Origin: Bradyrhizobium genosp. L
GTDB lineage: Bacteria > Pseudomonadota > Alphaproteobacteria > Rhizobiales > Xanthobacteraceae
DNA length: 64,000 bases
Direction of reading: 5' to 3'
Assembly: GCF_015624485.1 (NCBI RefSeq)
Contig: NZ_CP061378.1
Span: 434,001 to 498,000 of the forward strand
Shown in pieces: positions 47,296-58,552 of this stretch. Every line of letters starts with the position of its first letter. Position 1 is the first letter of the stretch. A program made the position numbers and the translations under genes. Under the pieces are notes generated by a model. That model made no database searches. It was not told the DNA's origin and saw nothing but the letters and a program-made list of their open reading frames with translations.

Positions 47296-47311
47296 CCCGT
47301 AAGACTACTGT
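47296..47311. promoter_or_regulatory. CCGTA-N4-TACGG palindrome, degenerate site 1
   Basis: CCCGTA-AGAC-TACTGT: the left arm is perfect, the right arm keeps TAC and one G. It lies 152 bp before the LuxR start codon and 89 bp before the perfect site at 47401. Confidence 0.4.
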
Positions 47312-47400
47312 AATTCCACTCGAATCTGCGGGATTCGTTGCCAAATCAGCGGTGATCTGCGCCTGCTTGGCGTCATGAACCTGAGATCACAGTTGCGTTA

Positions 47401-47416
47401 CCCGTATTACTACGGG
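47401..47416. promoter_or_regulatory. CCGTA-N4-TACGG palindrome, perfect site 2
   Basis: CCCGTA-TTAC-TACGGG is a perfect 6+6 dyad, 47 bp upstream of the LuxR-type gene. The TAC/GTA core and 4-base spacer suit a NarL/FixJ-type helix-turn-helix dimer, so autoregulation is plausible. Confidence 0.65.
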
Positions 47417-47463
47417 GTCTCGCGTTAACGCAGACACAAGTTCACCTTCGGTAAACCATACTT

Positions 47464-48051
47464 ATGACGCAGCACGACAATCGAGCCGAGGTCCGCGTTC
47501 CGAGCTGGATGGGGCAAGACGCGCCGCTCGAGGTCCGGGAGGCCGCCCCGCGCGCGCCGGCGGAGGAGGCCGGCGCCGTGGTTGTCCGCCAGCTCAACGG
47601 ACCGGTGACGGCGCTGCTGCTCTATATGAACGAGCTCAAGCAGCACAGCCATCAATTCGCGCAGACACCGGGCAACGGCATCTATTTGCGGCAGGTGATC
47701 GAGAACGCGCTCGAGCAGACCGAGCGCGTCTCCGCGATGCTGAAGCAGATTTCCGATCTCTATCCGAACGCGCTTCCAGCCGCCGATCTCAGGCCGCTGC
47801 GCGCCGACAAGCCGTCCCGTTCCGCGTCATCAGACGTGATGTTCGCGCCGGAAGCCGGCCGCAAGCCGCTGACCAAGCGCGAGCGCGAAGTGCTCAGCCT
47901 GATCAGTGACGGCTACTCCAACAAGCAGGGCGCGCTGCACATGAACATCAGCCCGCGCACCTTCGAGAGCCATCGCGCCGAGGCGATGCGCAAGCTCGGC
48001 GCGCGCAACACCGCCGATCTCGTCCGCAAGGCGCTGCTGCAGGGCGCCTGA
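47464..48051 (+). CDS. LuxR-type regulator without receiver domain
   Basis: 195 residues. The C-terminus (135-192) is a NarL/FixJ helix-turn-helix: LTKREREVLSLISDGYSNKQG, NISPRTFESHRAEAMRKLGARNTADLVRKAL. There is no receiver. Instead residues 40-100 form two predicted helices (VVVRQLNGPVTALLLYMNELK and VIENALEQTERVSAMLKQI) resembling the dimerisation hairpin of histidine kinases, without a clear phospho-accepting His in the usual place. It may sense a partner protein or simply dimerise. The HTH resembles that of the FixJ-like protein at 57911 (SPRT, LGARN-ADLVR), consistent with related DNA targets. Confidence 0.85.
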   Translation: MTQHDNRAEVRVPSWMGQDAPLEVREAAPRAPAEEAGAVVVRQLNGPVTALLLYMNELKQHSHQFAQTPGNGIYLRQVIENALEQTERVSAMLKQISDLYPNALPAADLRPLRADKPSRSASSDVMFAPEAGRKPLTKREREVLSLISDGYSNKQGALHMNISPRTFESHRAEAMRKLGARNTADLVRKALLQGA

Positions 48052-48066
48052 ACGGCAGTTATTTTT

Positions 48067-48315
48067 TCAAAGATAATCTTCTGTGGCGAGGCAGAGCAGC
48101 GGCGCGCGCCGCGTGGTCGATGCCGCGGGTTTCGGCTCGTCCGGGACGATCGTGATCACCCAAGCCGAAGCCGTGCCGACCCTGCTTTCGACGATCGAGC
48201 GCACGCGTCCGGTGACGGCCGTGCCGGCCGAGCGGACGGTGGCGGAGCGGCCGTTGAACTGGGCGATGCGGAAGCGCCTGGCTTCCTTGTGGTCGGTCGT
48301 CTCGTACGTCAGCAT
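48067..48315 (-). CDS. Small conserved-looking hypothetical protein
   Basis: 82 residues from MLTYETTDHKEARRF. Predicted strands (RFRIAQFNGRSATVRSAGTAVTGRVRSI, SAWVITIVPDEP) suggest a small beta-barrel-like domain. I do not recognise the family. GGGGGAG lies 4 bases before the ATG at 48315; an ATG four codons upstream is the alternative. A perfect CCGTA-N4-TACGG palindrome lies about 60 bp upstream, so it probably belongs to the same regulon as the LuxR and chemotaxis genes. Confidence 0.65.
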   Translation of the reverse strand: MLTYETTDHKEARRFRIAQFNGRSATVRSAGTAVTGRVRSIVESRVGTASAWVITIVPDEPKPAASTTRRAPLLCLATEDYL

Positions 48316-48375
48316 CGGCTCCCCCATCCTCGGCGCAACTGTGGGGATGCAACGTTATCCGACGGTGAAAATCGT

Positions 48376-48395
48376 GAGCCGTAGAAGTACGGCTC
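48376..48395. promoter_or_regulatory. CCGTA-N4-TACGG palindrome, perfect site 3
   Basis: GAGCCGTA-GAAG-TACGGCTC is a perfect 8+8 dyad between the minus-strand small gene (start 48315) and the end of the Crp-like gene (48408). By position it should control the small gene. Confidence 0.6.
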
Positions 48396-48407
48396 GCCGG
48401 CCGTATA

Positions 48408-49151
48408 TCACCCGCCGGCGTCCTCACCCTGCAGCAGTCCCGCATACTGCGCCTTGACCGCGGCGTAGCATTCGCATGAAGTCCGCATCAGGCCGTCGAC
48501 ATTGGTGATCTCGATATGGCCGCGGCTGTAATGGATGAAGTTCGCCTGCTGCAGGGTGTGCGCGACCAGCGACACGCTGTTGCGCCGCGCGCCGATCATC
48601 TGCGCCATCGCCTCCTGCGTCAGCACGATCTTGTTGCTGCCGGAGAGATCGCGCGTATGCAGCAGGCACCGCGCCAGCCGTGATTCCACGGTGTGCGCGG
48701 CATTGCAGCCGGCAGTCTGCTGGATCTGGGCATAGACGGCGAGCCCGTGCCGGATCAGCGCGGCGCGAAGCGTCGGGCTCGCGCCGGCGGCCGCCCGCAA
48801 CGCGCCGACCTCGATCGCCGAACAGGCGCCGGGCACCAGCACGACGGCATTGTTCAAGACGCGCGCCTCGACCAGCGGCGTGAACGCGCCGTAGAGGCTG
48901 TCGCGGCCGACCATCGCGACCTGCACGCGCTCGCCTTTCGCCAGCTTGACCACCAACGAGATCACGCCCTTGTGAGGCATGTAAATGCGGTTGAGCATTT
49001 CGTCGGTCTCGACCAGCACCGTGTCAGCCACGAGCTCGATCGTGCGCAAATGCTGCCGGATCAATTCGAAATCGCTATCCGACAGCGCCGCCAGAAATCC
49101 ATTAGGTGATCGCGGAAACGTATCCAAAGCAACCTCCTGCCTTTCCGGCAA
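48408..49151 (-). CDS. Crp/Fnr-family transcriptional regulator (paralogue A)
   Basis: 247 residues. An N-terminal cyclic-nucleotide-binding-like beta barrel (NRIYMPHKGVISLVVKLAKGERVQVAMVGRDSLYGAF) is followed by a C-terminal helix-turn-helix (LTQEAMAQMIGARRNSVSLVAHTLQQANFIHYSRGHIEI). The four-cysteine cluster of Fnr/FixK is absent and the phosphate-binding cassette of true CRP is not evident, so the ligand is unknown. It is closely related to the next gene (shared VGRDS, QMIG-RRN-VS-VAH, YSRGHIEIT, CECY), a tandem duplication. Confidence 0.9.
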   Translation of the reverse strand: MPERQEVALDTFPRSPNGFLAALSDSDFELIRQHLRTIELVADTVLVETDEMLNRIYMPHKGVISLVVKLAKGERVQVAMVGRDSLYGAFTPLVEARVLNNAVVLVPGACSAIEVGALRAAAGASPTLRAALIRHGLAVYAQIQQTAGCNAAHTVESRLARCLLHTRDLSGSNKIVLTQEAMAQMIGARRNSVSLVAHTLQQANFIHYSRGHIEITNVDGLMRTSCECYAAVKAQYAGLLQGEDAGG

Positions 49152-49299
49152 AGCTTGACTCTGGGCACCACGGCTGACGCGCGCAGCCGGACGTCCCCGC
49201 GTCCCATCCTGCCACGTCTTGAACCTGAGCAGAATACGCCGATTGCCGCATCGCGGCAGCCCGCATATCAGATTTCGGCAACTGGCTGGCTCGCTCCGG

Positions 49300-50010
49300 T
49301 CAATCCTCCGGCCCGATCAATTGCTCGGCGTGCAGCCTGACCGTCCCGTAGCACTCGCAGGCCGCCTTCCGCAGGCCGTCGGTGTCGGTGATTTCGATAT
49401 GCCCGCGGCTGTAGCGCAGGATGCCGGCCTGCTGAAAGCCATGTGCGACGATCGAGACCGCGTTGCGTCGGACACCGATCATCTGCGCCAGCATCTCCTG
49501 GGTCAGCGGCAACGCCTCGCTGCCGCAAAGATCGCGCGCGCGCAGCAGCCAGCGCGACAGCCGCGCCTCCACCGGATGCGAGACGTTGCAGGCGACCGAT
49601 TGTTGCGTCTGCGCCATCAGCGCCTGCTCATAAAGAGCGACCAGGGTCCGGAAGGCGGCGCTGCGATCCACGATCTCGCGGAAATCTTCCGCCCGCAACA
49701 CCGAAGCGGTGCCCGGCACCACGACGATGGCGTCCGCGAGCAGCGGCCGTGCATAAAGCGCAGCCGACGCGCCGACAATGCTGTCGCGTCCGATCGTGGC
49801 GATCTCGACCGACTGCCCGTCGGACAGATTGACCATCAGCGAGACCACGCCGCTGTGCGGCAGGTAGACCCGCTGCACCGGCGCGCCGGCGTCGGCCAGC
49901 ACTGTTTCCTTGGTCAACTCGACGGTTTCGAGAAGCGGATGAAGTTGCGCGTAATCCGCAGCGGGAAGCGCATGCAACAGACGATTGGGCGGACGTGCTA
50001 CCGCAGACAT
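49300..50010 (-). CDS. Crp/Fnr-family transcriptional regulator (paralogue B)
   Basis: 236 residues, same architecture as paralogue A: VQRVYLPHSGVVSLMVNLSDGQSVEIATIGRDSIVGAS in the sensor barrel, and LTQEMLAQMIGVRRNAVSIVAHGFQQAGILRYSRGHIEITD in the helix-turn-helix. The ATG at 50010 (MSAVARPPNRLL) has AGGAG at ideal spacing and is preferred to a start nine codons upstream. The 148-bp gap to paralogue A could hold a separate promoter. Confidence 0.9.
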   Translation of the reverse strand: MSAVARPPNRLLHALPAADYAQLHPLLETVELTKETVLADAGAPVQRVYLPHSGVVSLMVNLSDGQSVEIATIGRDSIVGASAALYARPLLADAIVVVPGTASVLRAEDFREIVDRSAAFRTLVALYEQALMAQTQQSVACNVSHPVEARLSRWLLRARDLCGSEALPLTQEMLAQMIGVRRNAVSIVAHGFQQAGILRYSRGHIEITDTDGLRKAACECYGTVRLHAEQLIGPED

Positions 50011-50498
50011 TGGATCTCCTGCCGAGGGCGGGAGCACTGCGGTCTCGCATCACCTACTCTTGGCGCGTGGAATGGCAACGAACATAGCTTGCCTGTCCAA
50101 TTGCACAAGAGTTGTGGCATCGACTTTATACCCTTTCGAGGGCAGACAGCCGATGCCGCACTGGCAATCGATATCGATTCGACCGAAGCACGCCTTTGCC
50201 GGCGATGCTACCACAGGAGATTGCAACTCTCGGTGGTATTTATTGATTTCCGTTAACTGTATTCCGCCGCGGCGATTCTGTCGTCAGGTTTTGCCAACCC
50301 GCCGCGGGTGGGCATCGGACCGGCGGCACCGGGCGGCGGTTTTGCGGCCGGCCGCAGAATGACCGGACCGCGCCCTCTGGGTATTTGTACGGAGCGCCGC
50401 TTTAACGAACGGGTCACGCCGCCGGCCCAGTGTGGCACGGACCGCCGCGTGAAATTTGCGGCGTCACGTCAATCGTGTTCATCCAGAAGGGTATCAGT
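50011..50498. other. Flagellin upstream control region
   Basis: No gene seen. It contains AT-rich stretches near 50230-50265 and the degenerate CCGTA-N4-TACGG site at 50379-50394. I could not identify a sigma-54 or sigma-28 promoter with confidence. Confidence 0.6.
50379..50394. promoter_or_regulatory. CCGTA-N4-TACGG palindrome, degenerate site 4
   Basis: GGGTA-TTTG-TACGG: the right arm and the GTA-N4-TAC core are kept, the two outer bases of the left arm are changed, and flanking CT/AG still pair. The TTTG spacer equals that of site 5 and, on the other strand, site 6. It lies about 105 bp before the flagellin start. Confidence 0.4.
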
Positions 50499-52025
50499 AT
50501 GTCCGGCATCGTCCTCTCGTCATCGGTCCGTCAGAATCTGCTTTCGCTGCAGTCGACCGCCGATCTCCTCGCCACCACGCAGAACCGTTTGTCGACCGGC
50601 AAGAAGGTCAACACTGCTCTCGACAATCCGACCAACTTCTTCACCGCGCAGTCGCTCGACAACCGCGCCAGCGACATCAACAACCTGCTCGACGGCATCG
50701 GCAACGGCGTCCAGGTGCTGCAGTCCGCCAACACCGGCATCACCTCGCTGCAGAAGCTGGTCGACAGCGCCAAGTCGGTCGCCAACCAGGCGCTGCAGGC
50801 GGCGGTCGGCTATTCGGCGAAGTCGTCGTTCACGACCGACCCGATCGCCGGCGCGACCACCGACAACCTGCTTGGCACCTCGGCTGCTGCGAGCAACGCC
50901 GTTCTGACCGGCTCGTCCGCGCTCGCCACGCTCGACCTGACGGCGGCCTCGACCGACCTGACCTTCAAGGTCAACTCCCAGACCGTCACGCTGGCGAAGG
51001 GCTCGTCCTACACCGCGACCCAGATCAAGGATGCGATCAACACCCAGGTCGGCACCAGCGCCAAGGTCGCCGCCACGCTCGATGGTTCCGGCAAGCTGGT
51101 TCTGACCAGCACCAACACCGCGGGCGCTTCGGACGCGGTCACCGTCGACACCTTCAGCTCCGGCGATGCGACGCAGCTCGGCTTCCCGGCCGGCGCTTCG
51201 GCGACCGCCAGCGGCTCCGCCGGCGGCAGCCCGCTCGACGGCCTCACGCTGACCATCGGCGCGACCGGCAATGGCACCGCCACCAGCATCACTTTCGGCA
51301 CCGGCAGCGGCAAGGTGAAGTCGCTCAACGATCTGAACAACGCGCTCGCGGGCAACAACCTGCAGGCCTCGCTCAGCGCAACCGGCGCGCTCACCATCAG
51401 CACCACCAACGATGCCGCCTCGGCGACCATCGGCACGGTCGGTGGCACCGCGGCCGATACCGGCAAGCTGTTCAACGGCAAGACCGGCAGCACTCCGGTG
51501 CAGGACCCGACTGGGCTGACGAACCGCGCCAACCTGGTCAACCAGTACAATAACATCCTGGATCAGATCACCACGACCGCCCAGGACGCGTCGTACAACG
51601 GCATCAACCTGCTCAATGGCGATCAGCTCAAGCTGACCTTCAACGAGACGGGCTCCTCGACGCTGAAGATCCAGGGCGTGACCTTCGACGCTTCCGGCCT
51701 CAACCTGACCAAGCTGACCGCCGGAACGGACTTCATCGACAACGCTTCGGCCAACGCCACGCTGAAGACGCTCAACTCGGCGAGCGGCCTGCTGCGTACC
51801 CAGGCGTCGACCCTCGGTTCGAACCTGTCGATCGTGCAGATCCGTCAGGACTTCTCGAAGAACCTGATCAACGTACTGCAGACCGGCTCGTCCAACCTGA
51901 CGCTGGCCGACACCAACGAGGAAGCGGCGAACAGCCAGGCGCTGTCGACCCGTCAGTCGATCGCGGTGTCCGCGCTGGCGCTCGCCAACCAGTCGCAGCA
52001 GAGCGTTCTGCAGCTGCTCCGTTAA
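50499..52025 (+). CDS. Flagellin
   Basis: 508 residues. The N-terminal D0/D1 region (SSSVRQNLLSLQSTADLLATTQNRLSTGKKVNTALDNPTNFFTAQSL) and the C-terminal D1/D0 region (QASTLGSNLSIVQIRQDFSKNLINVL... ALANQSQQSVLQLLR) are conserved and frame an Ala/Ser/Thr-rich variable middle (about 140-390) exposed on the filament. The terminal Arg of LLR is typical. It is exported without a cleaved signal by the flagellar type III system. The ATG at 50499 is preceded by AAGGG; upstream open codons are leader. A terminator follows at once. Confidence 0.95.
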   Translation: MSGIVLSSSVRQNLLSLQSTADLLATTQNRLSTGKKVNTALDNPTNFFTAQSLDNRASDINNLLDGIGNGVQVLQSANTGITSLQKLVDSAKSVANQALQAAVGYSAKSSFTTDPIAGATTDNLLGTSAAASNAVLTGSSALATLDLTAASTDLTFKVNSQTVTLAKGSSYTATQIKDAINTQVGTSAKVAATLDGSGKLVLTSTNTAGASDAVTVDTFSSGDATQLGFPAGASATASGSAGGSPLDGLTLTIGATGNGTATSITFGTGSGKVKSLNDLNNALAGNNLQASLSATGALTISTTNDAASATIGTVGGTAADTGKLFNGKTGSTPVQDPTGLTNRANLVNQYNNILDQITTTAQDASYNGINLLNGDQLKLTFNETGSSTLKIQGVTFDASGLNLTKLTAGTDFIDNASANATLKTLNSASGLLRTQASTLGSNLSIVQIRQDFSKNLINVLQTGSSNLTLADTNEEAANSQALSTRQSIAVSALALANQSQQSVLQLLR

Positions 52026-52053
52026 GCGCAGCCGCGACCGACATCGAATAGCG

Positions 52054-52085
52054 AGGCGGCGGAGGCAACTCCGCCGCCTTTGCTT
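52054..52085 (+). terminator. Rho-independent terminator of the flagellin gene
   Basis: AGGCGGCGGAG (52054-52064) pairs with CTCCGCCGCCT (52069-52079) over a GCAA tetraloop, followed by TTTGCTTG. It lies 28 bp past the flagellin stop. Confidence 0.85.
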
Positions 52086-52427
52086 GTGCGCTCGATCGCA
52101 TCATGATCCAGGGTTTGCGGTCCTCAACCAAAGGGCGATCGCCCCCGACGCAGGCTGATGTCGCAGCCGTGAAAGTTTCGCTGCACTTAACGGCGGCCGG
52201 ATTCCATTCGATTCAAATTGCGATGACCGGTGGAACGGGCTCTTTCCCGTTCGGGTGGTAAGTGCCTGTTACTGCGAGGCTGGCCACATGTCCCGATGCA
52301 TCGTGCAACATCTTGAAATGGTTCACCGTCCGTATTTGCACGGACGGCGAAATTAACGTCGCCGTGAAGCCGAGGGGGCTATCGATGCAGGGCGACCGTT
52401 CCGCAGCACTTTGAGGGGGCCTTTCCG
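52086..52427. other. Non-coding control region upstream of cheA
   Basis: No gene seen in about 340 bases between the flagellin terminator and cheA. It includes a palindromic control site at 52326-52347 and the cheA ribosome site (AGGGGG near 52411). Confidence 0.7.
52326..52347. promoter_or_regulatory. CCGTA-N4-TACGG palindrome, site 5 (cheA)
   Basis: CCGTCCGT (52326-52333) pairs perfectly with ACGGACGG (52340-52347). The inner core reads CCGTA-TTTG-CACGG, one base off the consensus. It lies about 80 bp upstream of the cheA start codon, where it could activate or repress the chemotaxis operon. Confidence 0.55.
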
Positions 52428-55142
52428 ATGGACGATCTGTTGCGCGAGTTCCTGACGGAGAGCAGCGAGAGCCTGGATACGGTCGACAATCAGCTGGTGC
52501 AGTTCGAGCAGGATCCGAACAACGCGAAGATCCTGGATAATATTTTTAGGCTTGTACACACCATCAAGGGCACCTGCGGTTTCCTGGGATTGCCGCGGCT
52601 GGAAGCACTTGCCCATGCCGGCGAGACCTTGATGGGCAAATTCCGCGACGGCATGCCGGTCAAGGCAGAGGCGGTGACGCTGATCCTGTCCTCGATCGAT
52701 CGCATCAAGGAGATTTTGGCGGGCCTCGAGGCGACCGAGGCCGAGCCCGAGGGCAACGATCGCGACCTGATCGATCAGCTGGAGGCGATGGTCGAGCGCG
52801 GCATGGCAGCCATGGCGGCCGCTGAAGAAGTGCCTGTCGTCGAAGCCCCGTCGATGCAGCCGGCGATGACCGAAGGCACGCTGGTGGTGCAGACCCTGGA
52901 GCGTCCGCTGCGTCCAGGCGAGGTCTCGCTCGACGAGCTCGAGCGCGCCTTCCGCGAGACCGAGACCGAAGCGGCCGCGCCGGCCCCGCCGCCGGTGGCA
53001 AAACCCGCCGCGCCCGTTGCCGAGGCCGCGCCCACCGAGGCCGCCAAGAAGCCGGTCCGCAAGACGGCCGCCGAGAGCGAGGTCCAGGAAGGCGACAAGA
53101 TCGCCAACCAGTCGATCCGGGTCAATGTCGACACCCTCGAACACCTCATGACCATGGTCTCCGAGCTGGTCTTGACCCGCAACCAGCTGCTCGAGATCTC
53201 CCGCCGCAACGAGGACACCGAGTTCAAGGTGCCGCTGCAGCGCCTCTCCAACGTCACCGCCGAGCTGCAGGAGGGCGTCATGAAGACGCGCATGCAGCCG
53301 ATCGGCAATGCCTGGCAGAAGCTGCCCCGCATCGTCCGCGACCTCTCCGGCGAACTCGGCAAGCAGATCGAGCTCGAGATGCACGGCGCCGACACCGAGC
53401 TCGACCGCCAGGTGCTCGACCTGATCAAGGATCCGCTGACGCACATGGTGCGCAACTCCGCCGATCACGGCCTGGAGACCCCGGCCGAGCGGGTCGCGAG
53501 CGGCAAGGGCGAGCAGGGCACCATCCGGCTGTCCGCCTATCACGAGGGCGGCCACATCATCATCTGCATCGCCGACAATGGAAGAGGGCTCAACACCGAG
53601 CGGATCAAGGCCAAGGCGCTCCAGAACGGTCTCGTCAGCGAGGCCGAACTGGAGAAGATGACCGAGGCCCAGATCCACAAGTTCATCTTCGCGCCGGGCT
53701 TCTCCACCGCAGCGCAGGTGACCTCGGTGTCCGGCCGCGGCGTCGGCATGGACGTGGTGCGCACCAATATCGACCAGATCGGCGGCACCATCGACATCAA
53801 GAGCGTGGCCGGCGAGGGCGCCAGTGTCACCATCAAGATCCCGCTCACCCTGGCGATCGTCTCGGCTTTGATCGTGGAAGCCGGCGGCGACCGCTTTGCG
53901 ATCCCGCAATTGTCTGTGGTCGAGCTGGTGCGGGCCCGCGCCAACTCCGAGCACCGCATCGAGCGGATCAAGGACACCGCGGTCTTGCGGTTGCGCAACA
54001 AGCTGCTGCCGCTGATCCATCTCAAGAAGCTGCTCAAGATCGACGACGGCGCCACCACCGACGCCGAGAACGGCTTTATCGTCGTGACGCAAGTCGGCAG
54101 CCAGACCTTCGGCATCGTGGTCGACGGCGTGTTCCACACCGAGGAGATCGTGGTCAAGCCGATGTCCACGAAGCTGCGCCACATCGACATGTTCTCCGGC
54201 AATACCATCCTGGGCGATGGCGCCGTGATCATGATCATCGACCCCAACGGGATCGCCAAGGCGCTGGGCGCCGCCGGCTCCTCCGCCCATGACATGGCCG
54301 ATGACAGCGCCGCTGCGCACGCCAATGGCGGCGAGCAGCTGACCTCGCTGCTGGTGTTCCGCGCCGGCAATCACCAGCCCAAGGCGGTGCCGCTCAGCCT
54401 CGTCACCCGGCTGGAGGAGATTGCGGCCGACAAGATCGAGCTCAGTAACGGCCGCTACATGGTGCAGTACCGCGAGCAGCTGATGCCGCTGGTGCAGATG
54501 GCCGGCGTCCAGGTGCAGACCCAAGGCTCGCAGCCGATCCTGGTGTTCGCCGATGACGGCCGCTCGATGGGGCTCGTGGTCGACGAGATCATCGACATCG
54601 TCGAGGAGCGCCTCAACATCGAGGTCGCAGGCAGCCAGGACGGCATTCTGGGCTCGGCCGTGATCAAGGGCCAGGCCACCGAGGTGATCGACGTCGGCCA
54701 CTTCCTGCCGATGGCGTTTGCCGACTGGTTCTCGCGCAAGGAGATGCGCCCGTCGATGTCGGCGCAGTCGGTGCTGCTGGTCGACGACAGTGCCTTCTTC
54801 CGCAACATGCTGGCGCCGGTGCTGAAGGCCGCCGGCTACCGGGTACGGACCGCGCCGAACGCCCAGGAGGGCCTCGCCGCGCTGCGCTCGGGGCAAAGCT
54901 TCGACGTGGTGCTGACCGACATCGAGATGCCCGAGATGAACGGGTTCGAGTTCGCCGAGAGCATCCGCTCCGACCACAATCTCACGGGCATGCCGATCAT
55001 CGCGCTGTCGGCGATGATCTCGCCGGCGGCAATCGAGCGCGGCCGGCAGGCCGGCTTCCATGACTACGTGGCAAAATTCGATCGTCCCGGGCTGATCGCG
55101 GCGCTGAAAGAGCAGACCGCCGAACTGAGCCGGGCGGCCTAA
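52428..55142 (+). CDS. cheA: Hybrid chemotaxis histidine kinase CheA with C-terminal receiver
   Basis: 904 residues. An HPt domain with phospho-acceptor H44 (RLVHTIKGTCGFLGL), a Pro/Ala/Glu-rich linker (about 140-225), the dimerisation domain (SIRVNVDTLEHLMTMVSELVLTRNQLLEI), the ATPase domain (HMVRNSADHGLE, DNGRGL, SGRGVGMDVVRTNI), a CheW-like domain, a second CheW-like stretch (about 635-765), and a C-terminal receiver (VLLVDDSAFFRNML, phospho-Asp in VLTDIEMPEMNGFEF). No P2 domain is obvious. The receiver probably acts as a phosphate sink or in cis regulation. It starts the cheA-cheW-cheY-cheR operon. Confidence 0.95.
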   Translation: MDDLLREFLTESSESLDTVDNQLVQFEQDPNNAKILDNIFRLVHTIKGTCGFLGLPRLEALAHAGETLMGKFRDGMPVKAEAVTLILSSIDRIKEILAGLEATEAEPEGNDRDLIDQLEAMVERGMAAMAAAEEVPVVEAPSMQPAMTEGTLVVQTLERPLRPGEVSLDELERAFRETETEAAAPAPPPVAKPAAPVAEAAPTEAAKKPVRKTAAESEVQEGDKIANQSIRVNVDTLEHLMTMVSELVLTRNQLLEISRRNEDTEFKVPLQRLSNVTAELQEGVMKTRMQPIGNAWQKLPRIVRDLSGELGKQIELEMHGADTELDRQVLDLIKDPLTHMVRNSADHGLETPAERVASGKGEQGTIRLSAYHEGGHIIICIADNGRGLNTERIKAKALQNGLVSEAELEKMTEAQIHKFIFAPGFSTAAQVTSVSGRGVGMDVVRTNIDQIGGTIDIKSVAGEGASVTIKIPLTLAIVSALIVEAGGDRFAIPQLSVVELVRARANSEHRIERIKDTAVLRLRNKLLPLIHLKKLLKIDDGATTDAENGFIVVTQVGSQTFGIVVDGVFHTEEIVVKPMSTKLRHIDMFSGNTILGDGAVIMIIDPNGIAKALGAAGSSAHDMADDSAAAHANGGEQLTSLLVFRAGNHQPKAVPLSLVTRLEEIAADKIELSNGRYMVQYREQLMPLVQMAGVQVQTQGSQPILVFADDGRSMGLVVDEIIDIVEERLNIEVAGSQDGILGSAVIKGQATEVIDVGHFLPMAFADWFSRKEMRPSMSAQSVLLVDDSAFFRNMLAPVLKAAGYRVRTAPNAQEGLAALRSGQSFDVVLTDIEMPEMNGFEFAESIRSDHNLTGMPIIALSAMISPAAIERGRQAGFHDYVAKFDRPGLIAALKEQTAELSRAA

Positions 55143-55154
55143 AGGGATCACAGG

Positions 55155-55628
55155 ATGACCAGCAAGACCGAAACCACCGAAGGCGCGATGTCCGAATACG
55201 TCACCGCCGTGATCGGCGGGCAGCTATTTGGCTTGCCGATCTCCCGTGTCCAGGACGTCTTCATGCCGGAGCGGCTGACGCGGGTTCCGCTGGCCTCCAG
55301 CGAGATCGCCGGCGTGCTCAACCTGCGCGGCCGCATCGTCACCGTGGTCGACATGCGGGCCCGGCTCGGGCTGCCCAAGGCCGATGACGGCCAGCCGCCG
55401 ATGGCGGTCGGCGTCGACCAGCGCGGTGAATCCTATGGCCTGCTGATCGACCAGATCGGCGAGGTGCTGCGGCTGCCCGATGCCAGCCGCGAGGACAACC
55501 CGGTCAATCTCGATCCGCGGATGGCCAAGCTCGCCGGCGGCGTCCACCGCCTCGACGGCCAGCTCATGGTCGTGCTCGACGTCGATCGCGTGCTCGAATT
55601 GGTGCCAAAAACGGCTGCTGCAGCTTAA
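55155..55628 (+). CDS. cheW: Chemotaxis coupling protein
   Basis: 157 residues of CheW fold: EYVTAVIGGQLFGLPISRVQDVF, then GVLNLRGRIVTVVDMRARLGL and GLLIDQIGEVLRL. It links receptors to CheA at the cell pole. AAAGGGATCACAGG precedes the ATG, 12 bp after cheA. An internal ATG at codon 12 is possible but less well placed. Confidence 0.93.
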   Translation: MTSKTETTEGAMSEYVTAVIGGQLFGLPISRVQDVFMPERLTRVPLASSEIAGVLNLRGRIVTVVDMRARLGLPKADDGQPPMAVGVDQRGESYGLLIDQIGEVLRLPDASREDNPVNLDPRMAKLAGGVHRLDGQLMVVLDVDRVLELVPKTAAAA

Positions 55629-55671
55629 CGCCCGGTCGCGGAGACGGCGGGTTCAACAAGGAGGCCAACAC

Positions 55672-56058
<387 letters not shown>

Positions 56059-56091
56059 AGCAATTCCACCCTTTGCCGCTGCGAGGCTCCT

Positions 56092-56952
56092 GTGACGCCC
56101 CCTGACTACGAGTATCTGCGTAAGCTGTTCAAGGACCATTCCGGTCTCGATCTGTCCTCGGACAAGCAATATCTGATCGAGAGCCGCCTGCTGCCGCTGG
56201 CGCGCAAATGCGGCCTCGCCGGCATCCCCGACCTGTTGGCGAAAATGCGGGCCGGCTCGTCCCAGCACATCGTCCAGGCGGTCGAGGCGATGACCACCAA
56301 CGAGACCTTCTTCTTCCGCGACAAGGTCCCGTTCGATCATTTCCGCGACACCATCATGCCCAACGTGCTGAAGGCGCGCGCTGCGCGGCGCAGCATTCGG
56401 ATCTGGTGCGCTGCCGGCTCGACCGGCCAGGAGCCTTATTCGCTGGCGATGTGCCTGAAGGAGATGGCCGCCGCGCTCGCCGGCTGGCGGGTCGAGATAA
56501 CAGCGACCGATCTGTCGCAGGAGGTGCTGGAGAAGGCGAAGGCCGGCATCTACAGCCAGTTCGAGGTGCAGCGCGGACTGCCGATCCAGATGCTGGTCAA
56601 GCACTTCAAGCAGACCGGAGAATTCTGGCAGGTCAATCCGGAATTGCGCGCGATGGTGCAGCACCGCCAGCTCAATCTGCTGCACGATTTTTCGCAGCTC
56701 GGCACCTTCGACGTGATCTTCTGCCGCAACGTGCTGATCTATTTCGACCAGGACACCAAGATCAACGTCTTCAACCGTCTGGCACGATCGATGGAGGCCG
56801 ACGGCTTCCTGGTGCTCGGCGCTGCCGAGACGGTGGTCGGCCTGACCGACACCTTCAAGCCTGTCGCCGACCGCCGCGGCCTGTACCGGCCGAGCGGAGT
56901 GCGGGGCGCCGGTGCTGCGATGCCCAGGATCGCCGCGGTGGCGGGGTTTTGA
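56092..56952 (+). CDS. cheR: Chemotaxis receptor methyltransferase CheR
   Basis: 286 residues from a GTG start (TPPDYEYLRKLFKDHSGLDLS). The N-terminal helical domain is followed by TNETFFFRDKVPFDHF and the SAM motif RIWCAAGSTGQEPYSLAM, then FDVIFCRNVLIYFDQ, all CheR hallmarks. It methylates receptor glutamates for adaptation. No cheB demethylase lies in the operon or elsewhere in the window. Confidence 0.94.
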   Translation: MTPPDYEYLRKLFKDHSGLDLSSDKQYLIESRLLPLARKCGLAGIPDLLAKMRAGSSQHIVQAVEAMTTNETFFFRDKVPFDHFRDTIMPNVLKARAARRSIRIWCAAGSTGQEPYSLAMCLKEMAAALAGWRVEITATDLSQEVLEKAKAGIYSQFEVQRGLPIQMLVKHFKQTGEFWQVNPELRAMVQHRQLNLLHDFSQLGTFDVIFCRNVLIYFDQDTKINVFNRLARSMEADGFLVLGAAETVVGLTDTFKPVADRRGLYRPSGVRGAGAAMPRIAAVAGF

Positions 56953-56955
56953 GCA

Positions 56956-57279
56956 ATGACCGAGGACGGCGGCAGGCTCGTCGAGCGCGTCACCTTCAGC
57001 CGGGGCTTCGACGTCTGCATCATGGCGATCGACGGTACCTGGCGGCGCGACTGCGTGCTCAACGCCGTCTCGGACAATGACGCCGCCCTCACGGTCGAGG
57101 GTTCCATCCAGGGGCTCAATCTGAAGGAATTCTTCCTGCTGCTGTCGTCGACCGGGCTGGCCTATCGCCGCTGCGAGCTGGTGCGCGTCAACGGCACCGA
57201 GATGGACATCACCTTCCTCAAGGGCAAGCCGGGCAGGAAGCGGCCGGCCGCGGGTGAGACCGAACGGATCGTGGCCTGA
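56956..57279 (+). CDS. PilZ-like small protein
   Basis: 107 residues, 3 bp after cheR and so coupled to it. The order of strands (RDCVLNAVSDNDAALTVEG, EFFLLLSSTGLAYRRCELVRVNGTEMDITFLKG) fits the PilZ barrel, but the c-di-GMP motif is degenerate: the D/NxSxxG position reads NAVSDNDAAL, and the RxxxR is not clear. It may bind protein rather than c-di-GMP, linking chemotaxis to motor control. Confidence in the fold is moderate. Confidence 0.65.
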   Translation: MTEDGGRLVERVTFSRGFDVCIMAIDGTWRRDCVLNAVSDNDAALTVEGSIQGLNLKEFFLLLSSTGLAYRRCELVRVNGTEMDITFLKGKPGRKRPAAGETERIVA

Positions 57280-57450
57280 CCGGCGTCACGCCGAAATCCG
57301 ACATCATCAGAGGCGATACCTGAGGAACAGATCGGCGGCTGCGTTGTTCTGCCGTGATCGGGCGCGATGACGGCCAACGGCCCAAGGACCGGCGGCCCCA
57401 TGGATCGGCTCACGGCAAGTTTGCGGTGCCAAAGTTTGCAGTGCGGCGGC

Positions 57451-57759
57451 TCAGTTCAGCACGCGCGCCGGCGCTTCGGATTCGCGCAAGCTGTCCAGCG
57501 CGACCCCGAGGCCTGCGCCGCAGGTCTTCAGCGCCGTGAACGCTGCGATGTAGCGCGGGGTAATATCGTCCAGGATGAGGATGCTGCTCTCGGTGTCCTG
57601 CTCGGTGAGCAATGCTTCGCGGGCAATCGCCGCCTCGATCAACCGCAGGCTGGTCTGGACATGCCCGATCAAGGCCACCAGGTCGGTCACGATCAGGGCG
57701 TGGGGGTCGCTGCCTTCGTCAGAGCACACCGCAACGTAGTCCGCCGCTGCATTGATCAT
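57451..57759 (-). CDS. Small helical hypothetical protein divergent from the FixJ-like regulator
   Basis: 102 residues from MINAAADYVAVCSDEG. Mostly predicted helix: ALIVTDLVALIGHVQTSLRLIEAAIAREALL, then ILILDDITPRYIAAFTALKTCGAGLGVALDSL. I do not recognise it. It shares a control region and one perfect palindrome (57824-57839) with the FixJ-like gene on the other strand, 65 bp from its start. GGAG lies 9 bases before the ATG at 57759; the alternative start is 57783. Confidence 0.65.
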   Translation of the reverse strand: MINAAADYVAVCSDEGSDPHALIVTDLVALIGHVQTSLRLIEAAIAREALLTEQDTESSILILDDITPRYIAAFTALKTCGAGLGVALDSLRESEAPARVLN

Positions 57760-57823
57760 GCATGTTTTCTCCACTGCCCCCATTTTTATGGAGTGCGGTG
57801 CTACTTGTGCGTTAAGCTGGCGT

Positions 57824-57839
57824 CCCGTACAAATACGGG
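57824..57839. promoter_or_regulatory. CCGTA-N4-TACGG palindrome, perfect site 6
   Basis: CCCGTA-CAAA-TACGGG is a perfect 6+6 dyad (CCCGTATTTGTACGGG on the other strand) almost midway between the divergent starts at 57759 and 57911. It could regulate both. Confidence 0.65.
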
Positions 57840-57910: not shown

Positions 57911-58552
57911 ATGCATATGGCTGAGAGTGGGGCTCCCCGCGGGGAGATTTTCGTAGTCGACGACGATCCTGCCGTTCGCGAGACGCTGTCAGTCGTTCTG
58001 TCGACAGCCGGCTACAAGGTGATCTGCTTTGCAGATGGCGCCGCGCTGCTCTCCGTCGCGCGCTCCAGGACGCCGGCCTGCATCCTGCTCGACGTGCATA
58101 TTCCCGGAAAATCCGGCCTCGATATCCTGCGAGAACTTCACGGCGAGGATTATCCGGCGCCGATCTTCATGATCTCGGGGCAGGGCGACATCGCAATGGC
58201 GGTCAGCGCCATCAAGAACGGCGCGCTGGATTTCATCGAGAAACCGTTCCGCGGCAACGAGATCGTCAGCCGGCTGAACGAGGCGATCGACGCCTACACC
58301 AGGCGCCGCAGCGAGAGCTCGGCGTCGCGCATCGCCGCCCTGCACTTCCCCGGCCGCGAACCCTTGACGCGCAGGGAGCGCGAGGTGCTCGAGCAGTTCA
58401 CCGCCGGCGCCTCCAACAAGGAAGCCGGGCGGCAGCTCGGCATCAGCCCGCGCACGATCGAGGACCATCGCGCCAACATCATGAAGAAGCTCGGCGCGCG
58501 CAACGCCGCCGATCTCGTCCGCATCGTGATGACGGCGCAGCGCCAAGCCTGA
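57911..58552 (+). CDS. FixJ/NarL-family response regulator
   Basis: 213 residues. Receiver domain 1-125 with the acidic pocket in IFVVDDDPAVRETL, phospho-Asp D61 in ILLDVHIPGKSGLD, and K111 in FIEKPFRG. C-terminal helix-turn-helix 150-208: LTRREREVLEQFTAGASNKEAG, ISPRTIEDHRANIMKKLGARNAADLV. The FixJ-type receiver implies a sensor kinase that is not in this window. Its HTH matches the receiver-less LuxR protein at 47464 at many positions. Start ATG 57911 or 57917; the ribosome site is weak. The stop codon sits in a 14-bp tandem repeat. Confidence 0.92.
   Translation: MHMAESGAPRGEIFVVDDDPAVRETLSVVLSTAGYKVICFADGAALLSVARSRTPACILLDVHIPGKSGLDILRELHGEDYPAPIFMISGQGDIAMAVSAIKNGALDFIEKPFRGNEIVSRLNEAIDAYTRRRSESSASRIAALHFPGREPLTRREREVLEQFTAGASNKEAGRQLGISPRTIEDHRANIMKKLGARNAADLVRIVMTAQRQA

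Follow-up and report, generated by a model that had tools for sequence, protein, structure and literature searches.

We analysed a window of 64,000 nucleotides from Bradyrhizobium genosp. L (contig NZ_CP061378.1, positions 434,001 to 498,000), in which a palindrome, CCGTA-N4-TACGG, recurs among chemotaxis and flagellin genes. The repeated palindrome is real, and it is half of a two-part promoter signature. The region begins with a luxR-type gene (47464..48051, plus strand; Pfam GerE 2.9e-17, and HisKA at 0.017, below the cut-off). On the minus strand follow a small conserved gene of 82 aa without a Pfam hit (48067..48315, start inferred) and genes for two Crp/Fnr-type regulators, A (48408..49151; HTH_Crp_2 2.6e-13) and B (49300..50037; HTH_Crp_2 7.7e-15). 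The plus strand then carries a flagellin gene (50499..52025; Flagellin_N, Flagellin_C), cheA (52428..55142; Hpt, H-kinase_dim, HATPase_c, CheW and Response_reg) and cheW-, cheY- and cheR-like genes with a small PilZ-like gene (55155..57279). The Che names come from open reading frame (ORF) translations, and the PilZ-like gene, which had no Pfam hit above the cut-off, is labelled by its paralogue only. Last come a small gene of 102 aa without a Pfam hit (57451..57759, minus strand) and a gene for a FixJ-type response regulator, here fixJ (57911..58552, plus strand; Response_reg 1.2e-26, GerE 1.2e-19). The 102-aa gene has 61 homologues, and all organism-named sources of these were Bradyrhizobium, bar one Kocuria entry.

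A first-pass annotation had listed six dyads in about 10.5 kb, three of them perfect. A pattern scan recovered all six, with those at 47402, 48379 and 57825 perfect. The luxR promoter contains a perfect dyad at 47402-47415 (CCGTATTACTACGG) and a second, upstream dyad at 47297-47310 (CCGTAAGACTACTG, one mismatch) that lacks the downstream element described below (box 2). The promoter of the 82-aa gene has the perfect dyad at 48379-48392 on the minus strand, the flagellin promoter a dyad with two mismatches at 50379-50392 (GGGTATTTGTACGG), and the cheA operon promoter one with a single mismatch at 52330-52343 (CCGTATTTGCACGG). The sixth, at 57825-57838 (CCGTATTTGTACGG, perfect), lies between the 102-aa gene and fixJ. 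Perfect dyads are clustered here, with 3 of the 14 in the genome (7,401,610 bases) falling within this 10.5 kb.

Reading of the flanks revealed exactly 9 nt and then TTAACG after the dyads at 47402, 50379, 52330 and 57825 (minus strand), and 9 nt and then TTCACC after 48379 (minus strand). Across relatives, the signature is CCGTA-NTNN-TACGG-N9-TT(A/C)ACG-N5-(G/T)TA(A/G), followed by a TA-type -10 box. A sequence-only model (R1), built from 35 sites, recognized the composites of luxR (47402..47430, plus strand, CCGTATTACTACGG + 9 nt + TTAACG; E = 1.1e-4), the 82-aa gene (48364..48392, minus strand, dyad + 9 nt + TTCACC; E = 9.9e-5), flagellin (50379..50407, plus strand, GGGTATTTGTACGG + 9 nt + TTAACG; E = 2.4e-5), the cheA operon (52330..52358, plus strand, CCGTATTTGCACGG + 9 nt + TTAACG; E = 1.6e-5) and, strongest of all, the 102-aa gene (57810..57838, minus strand, CCGTATTTGTACGG + 9 nt + TTAACG; E = 3.1e-7). 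Since R1 was trained on sites found by the dyad + TTAACG pattern, the strength of TTAACG within it is partly imposed. Downstream of the cheA-operon composite, a -10-like TATCGA lies at 52380.

Allowing up to three mismatches, the composite occurred six times at five places in the window (0.12 expected; 0 of 100 shuffles reached six), one of the six matches being the other strand of the 57825 palindrome. With at most one mismatch there were four composites in the home genome and none for the control. R1 gave 12 matches there at E<=10, and 5 of the 14 perfect dyads scored as composites (position weight matrix (PWM) score >=22). The dyad spacer is asymmetric, with T at column 7 in 96% of non-redundant sites, so the composite site has a direction. 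Site 57825, with its box, points toward the 102-aa gene and away from fixJ.

We compared the best 80 fixJ-encoding loci of the named collection, mostly Bradyrhizobium, and found the composite (<=3 mismatches) upstream of fixJ in 78, bearing out the conservation upstream of orthologues that the first-pass annotation had made a check. Of the remaining two, one (L104) starts 47 bp before fixJ and the other (L108) keeps the che site only. Many of the loci that extend far enough repeated the sites in front of luxR, flagellin, the 82-aa gene and cheA, or in front of cheY in loci without a cheA hit. With at most one mismatch, the composite was present in all 15 sampled genomes of the genus (the home genome included) and in 6 of 382 others of the order. 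At E<=0.5, R1 matched 40 of 40 genus genomes, with 5-18 sites each. That a genus-wide chemotaxis regulon exists is close to certain.

The annotation had noticed no dyads outside the region. For the genome this fails, as composites also precede a chemoreceptor gene (C1:2463681), a DUF6894 gene (5702958) and a PilZ gene, the last a strong site (C1:1740788, PWM 33.9) 241 nt before the called start. The tie to motility and chemotaxis that it proposed stood; it had missed the second box and these distal chemoreceptor members. A second chemoreceptor gene of the home genome has a weaker composite, and a site at C1:394560 may be a chance match. The PilZ gene at C1:1740788 has as its neighbour a gene paralogous to the small PilZ-like one in the che cluster. 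In relatives, distal sites lie before several types of chemoreceptor-like genes, DUF6894-like genes, a DUF2336 gene and others.

A wider set of targets came from 40 further regions, hand-picked among the matches listed by R1 and favouring sites away from the che cluster (one, L222, is a che cluster). Their genomes contributed no site to R1, with the reservation that one of them might, under a different name, be the source of a named locus used in R1. These regions held 53 sites at PWM >=24, of which 11 precede chemoreceptor (MCP) genes and 4 cheA (15 together). Another 24 precede recurrent members (12 DUF6894-like, 5 102-aa, 3 luxR, 2 DUF2336-like and 2 82-aa genes), and 5 precede other genes, including those for three proteins of one kind (~55-60 aa) and one HD-domain protein. 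Six have no called gene, two of these (L185, L200) being the opposite-strand reading of a neighbouring dyad already counted, and three are at a contig edge. Because motif sites served to define the classes s110, sml80, DUF6894 and DUF2336, only the 15 MCP and cheA sites form an independent count of targets. Gene classes beside sites were assigned by BLAST to reference proteins read off translations, with Pfam run on single examples only. In L189, L197 and L203, the ~55-60 aa protein (...KKNYIGIVNDTAEQ...) recurs directly after a composite site. Of 22 sites listed for other genera at PWM >=16, 9 precede chemoreceptor-like genes, 2 cheA, 2 a cheA-like gene (36-37% identity), 3 GGDEF genes of a single type and 1 a STAS gene (Pfam was run on the STAS gene and on one GGDEF gene); 1 is 451 nt from an Hpt-like gene, 1 precedes another gene and 3 have none called.

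To describe the promoter, we used 99 non-redundant sites that were picked on columns 1-30 only, leaving columns 31 onward unused for picking. Of the 99, 51 have TA at column 50 or 51 (25 + 26), compared with 0-8 for any other single column in the range 38-74. A TTAA-like second half-site, 11 bp downstream of the first, peaked at column 35 with a score of 1.94 of 4 (0.88 +/- 0.09 in 200 shuffles). If the TA is taken as the start of the -10 box, the dyad has its centre near -55, and the repeat extends from about -39 to about -25, overlapping -35. When we looked for TTAA-N7-TTAA at -35, the first half was strong; the second, (G/T)TA(A/G), was weak, its spacing was right and its position fitted the inferred -10 box.

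CtrA has the consensus TTAA-N7-TTAA, with activating sites at -35, according to the parts of two papers available to us (PMC11264516, PMC6180460), and in Sinorhizobium meliloti mcp and fla genes are described among its direct targets (PMC4433202, in part). The sites here resemble CtrA-activated promoters of Caulobacter and S. meliloti in having a TTAA-N7-TTAA-type repeat over -35 before mcp and flagellin genes. They differ in the degenerate second half and in the FixJ-type dyad at fixed spacing upstream, and CtrA binding to them is a prediction. TTAAC-N6-TTAAC gave 15 rows in the home genome (one place counted on both strands) and 4 for the control. Some of these sites precede flgB-, minC- and acyltransferase-like genes, as named from translations alone, which is supportive rather than proof. 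A CtrA-type factor is a plausible occupant of box 2, and the one we would favour.

The main alternative for box 2 is that TTAAC is merely a weak -35 element, without a second regulator. Resemblance of TTAACG to TTGACA speaks for this (mean 4.0 of 6 matches at column 24, a column that was part of site selection). However, 20-21 nt separate the element from the -10 box, more than the usual sigma-70 spacer of ~17, and this view would leave the 11-bp repeat at column 35 unexplained; we regard this alternative as doubtful, if the most serious of those considered. A sigma-54 reading (-24/-12) of the TTAACG-N4-TTGC-like stretches was dismissed by eye, the GG element being absent.

The likely binder of the dyad is the FixJ-type regulator encoded at 57911, to judge from its distribution and from the correlation of its recognition helix with the outer dyad base. 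Pfam places a receiver domain before a GerE helix-turn-helix (HTH), and the nearest solved sequence is FixJ (5xso, E 7.8e-43). The Asp of ILLDVHIPG, which we take to be the phospho-acceptor, and the lysine of EKPF are present in orthologue sequences. R1 matched 14 of 159 family genomes (E<=0.05, stricter filters), and an orthologue of FixJ at >=73% identity was found in 19, all 14 among them. The next 11 homologues (<=68%) differ: the six on the plus strand had no site in the upstream scan, and by eye none of the 11 had a site in the 190 bp upstream; several seem, again by eye, to have an upstream histidine-kinase coding sequence.

The recognition helix reads ISPR(T/M)IE(D/Y)HRANIMKKL in the 19 FixJ-positive genomes and ISPRTIEVHR(A/S)RIMEK in the 11 next-closest homologues. 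Within the first group it has D in Bradyrhizobium and G564, and Y in the other motif-bearing genera. The outer base of the dyad changes together with the helix: it is C at 79 of 84 sites from Bradyrhizobium and the 80 fixJ loci and at 4 of 14 from the genera with Y in the helix (Fisher p 1.7e-7; one G564 site was excluded), in a comparison of related lineages with shared ancestry uncorrected and with the helix read in 8 Bradyrhizobium genomes rather than at each site-giving locus. In its receiver-GerE layout and nearest solved relative the 57911 protein resembles the FixL/FixJ system. It departs from that system in that its sites precede chemotaxis genes, its helix has D or Y where motif-free homologues have V, and no FixL-type kinase gene was seen beside it in the window, where its neighbours are che genes, the 102-aa gene and a dehydratase-like gene (named from its translation).

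The first-pass annotation had proposed both HTH proteins as regulators. While FixJ tracks the motif, the LuxR-type protein (47464) fared less well. It could itself bind the dyad, with FixJ merely accompanying it: its gene lies within the cluster, its HTH is FixJ-like, and the composite site in its promoter is often accompanied by a second dyad. Such a dyad (<=1 mismatch) was found no more than 250 bp upstream of the main site in 6 of 11 luxR promoters, some from close relatives and the window included, compared with 1.7% of 2000 random 250-bp window stretches. However, a full-length LuxR, found in 12 of 159 family genomes among at most 20 candidates scored per genome, was not found under that scoring (E<=1e-10) in 4 of the 14 motif-bearing genomes (G439, G458, G516, G550). 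Conversely, G581 has LuxR yet no R1 match and no FixJ match at E<=1e-40, and the LuxR recognition helix differs (ISPRTFESHRAE). We consider binding by LuxR unlikely.

The make-up of the LuxR-type protein is unusual. Its C-terminus is a FixJ-like HTH, and a profile of its N-terminus matches solved structures of the FixL DHp domain (4gcz, E 4e-6). HisKA was detected at E<=0.05 in 8 of 14 homologues, in which the phospho-His position of the DHp domain is Arg in 12, Gln in 1 and kept in 1. The protein is thus predicted to be a fusion of a FixJ-type HTH with a degenerate FixL-like DHp (HisKA) domain that has lost the histidine, uniting parts of FixL and FixJ in one product. With quorum-sensing LuxR regulators it shares the GerE-type HTH; unlike them, it has a FixL-like N-terminus, and a Pfam scan of 14 members found no autoinducer-binding domain. 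More speculatively, and we would sooner expect otherwise, LuxR might be a pseudo-kinase transcription factor that feeds back by docking on the receiver domain of FixJ or by competing for dyads, so that it, the phosphorelay regulator FixJ and the cell-cycle regulator CtrA would converge on one composite promoter for chemoreceptor supply.

A Crp/Fnr-type protein (48408 or 49300) is a still weaker candidate for binding the dyad. Fnr-type boxes also have the architecture 5-N4-5, and two such genes, not discussed in the earlier annotation, lie among the sites. Regulator A, on which alone the phyletic test was made, reached >=67% identity only in 8 Bradyrhizobium of the 159 genomes and at most 53% elsewhere (up to 17 candidates scored per genome), and 6 genomes outside Bradyrhizobium carry the motif without regulator A at >=67%; we think this very improbable. 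That the dyads are chance or unrelated local palindromes would fit the background frequency of the bare dyad, and is refuted for the composite by its fixed spacing, genus-wide conservation, -10 box and target genes, leaving this explanation a negligible share of our belief.

We observed the signature, its spacing and conservation, the genes downstream of it and its tracking with FixJ directly. On balance, we find joint control of a chemotaxis regulon probable, exerted by an orphan FixJ-type regulator together with a CtrA-type factor through a two-part activator site. The FixJ-type response regulator (57911) would bind the CCGTA-N4-TACGG dyad centred near -55; a CtrA-type (OmpR-family) regulator would bind the TTAAC-N6-(G/T)TA(A/G) repeat overlapping -35; and both together would recruit RNA polymerase to the TA-type -10 box. 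Putative members in this genome are the cheA operon, flagellin, luxR, the two small genes, and the chemoreceptor, DUF6894 and PilZ genes. The earlier claim of sites before both HTH genes holds, with composites at luxR and in the fixJ/102-aa intergenic region, so self-regulation is plausible, and with dyad 57825 in that intergenic region feedback on fixJ is likely.

Several results weigh against co-control by FixJ and a CtrA-type factor. Bare dyads with at most two mismatches numbered 19 in the window (14.6 expected; 15 of 100 shuffles reached 19). Genome-wide there were 14 perfect dyads against 20 for a reversed-pattern control, and 140 against 570 with at most one mismatch. Nine of the 14 perfect dyads do not score as composites; three of the nine lie within called genes and one (C1:1170257) is near a receptor gene. 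The composite at up to three mismatches is too loose genome-wide (26, compared with 59 in the control). In the home genome, where 14 receptor domains were found, the 13 chemoreceptor gene starts examined gave one strong and one moderate site. Five of the 19 FixJ-positive genomes had no R1 match under the stricter filters; by eye, fixJ is still preceded by a dyad in four of these, and in G495 by no more than a degenerate one. The weak second half of box 2 makes CtrA less than certain, and another OmpR-family factor could act there. The limits on the helix comparison given above count here too, and we infer both the binding by FixJ and the CtrA-type factor and, from the -35 geometry, activation rather than repression. 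The unfavourable controls concern the bare dyad and the loose composite; we dropped the bare dyad as a signal and put the composite in its place, and the proposal rests on the strict composite. The genome-wide enrichment check that had been suggested for the motif thus came out negative for the bare dyad, which was not above its control, and positive for the strict composite (4 versus 0).

Transcriptional control of motility and chemotaxis genes is also the role of VisNR-Rem in other rhizobia and LafR in Bradyrhizobium diazoefficiens, and FlbD-FliX of the latter is said, in the title of a cited paper, to control such genes. Part of PMC8429497 describes B. diazoefficiens as lacking visNR and assigns LafR, its Rem homologue, to the control of lateral rather than polar flagella. 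The species has che1-3, and exudate induces cheA and flagellin genes (PMC13390405). The portion of this 2026 study available to us describes the factors behind differential che operon regulation as not known and mentions shared transcriptional regulators as one possibility (PMC13390405). Naming a candidate regulator, its sites and predicted start points makes this question directly testable in a soybean inoculant strain, and links rhizobial chemotaxis to a possible cell-cycle input. A start-site map reports, in the part available, RpoD- and RpoN-like motifs and two further motifs that are possibly RpoH, with 67% of starts having neither an RpoD- nor an RpoN-like motif (PMC4842269); the composite signature may account for some of these start sites. 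We found no description of the motif or regulator in literature titles and abstract openings, with few subscription papers covered, and the available portion of PMC6406911 mentions neither.

Some minor observations concern neighbouring loci. Many of the draft contigs among L043-L122 break off ~2-2.6 kb upstream of fixJ, within or close to cheW or cheA. The available part of PMC13390405 gives 99% similarity between the B. diazoefficiens proteins CheA1 and CheA2, which would explain these ends as an assembly repeat. Ribosomal RNA as the cause of the breaks was set aside, with no Rfam hit in the three loci searched. tblastn did not find cheA in L063, L068, L069, L071, L073, L081, L085 and L107; all of these except L063 have a composite site before cheY instead. 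L114 (14423-15018), L119 (9824-10420), L103 and L105 carry, ~4 kb downstream of fixJ, another gene of FixJ-like or receiver type with a divergent composite-like site, CCGTAGTTGTACGG-N9-TTCAC. Finally, the two elements occur with a different spacing at C1:1926045-1926087 in the home genome, where a dyad with one mismatch is followed after 13 nt by a perfect TTAACAAGTCCTTAAC; a short Fis-like ORF and a dehydrogenase-like gene flank this place.

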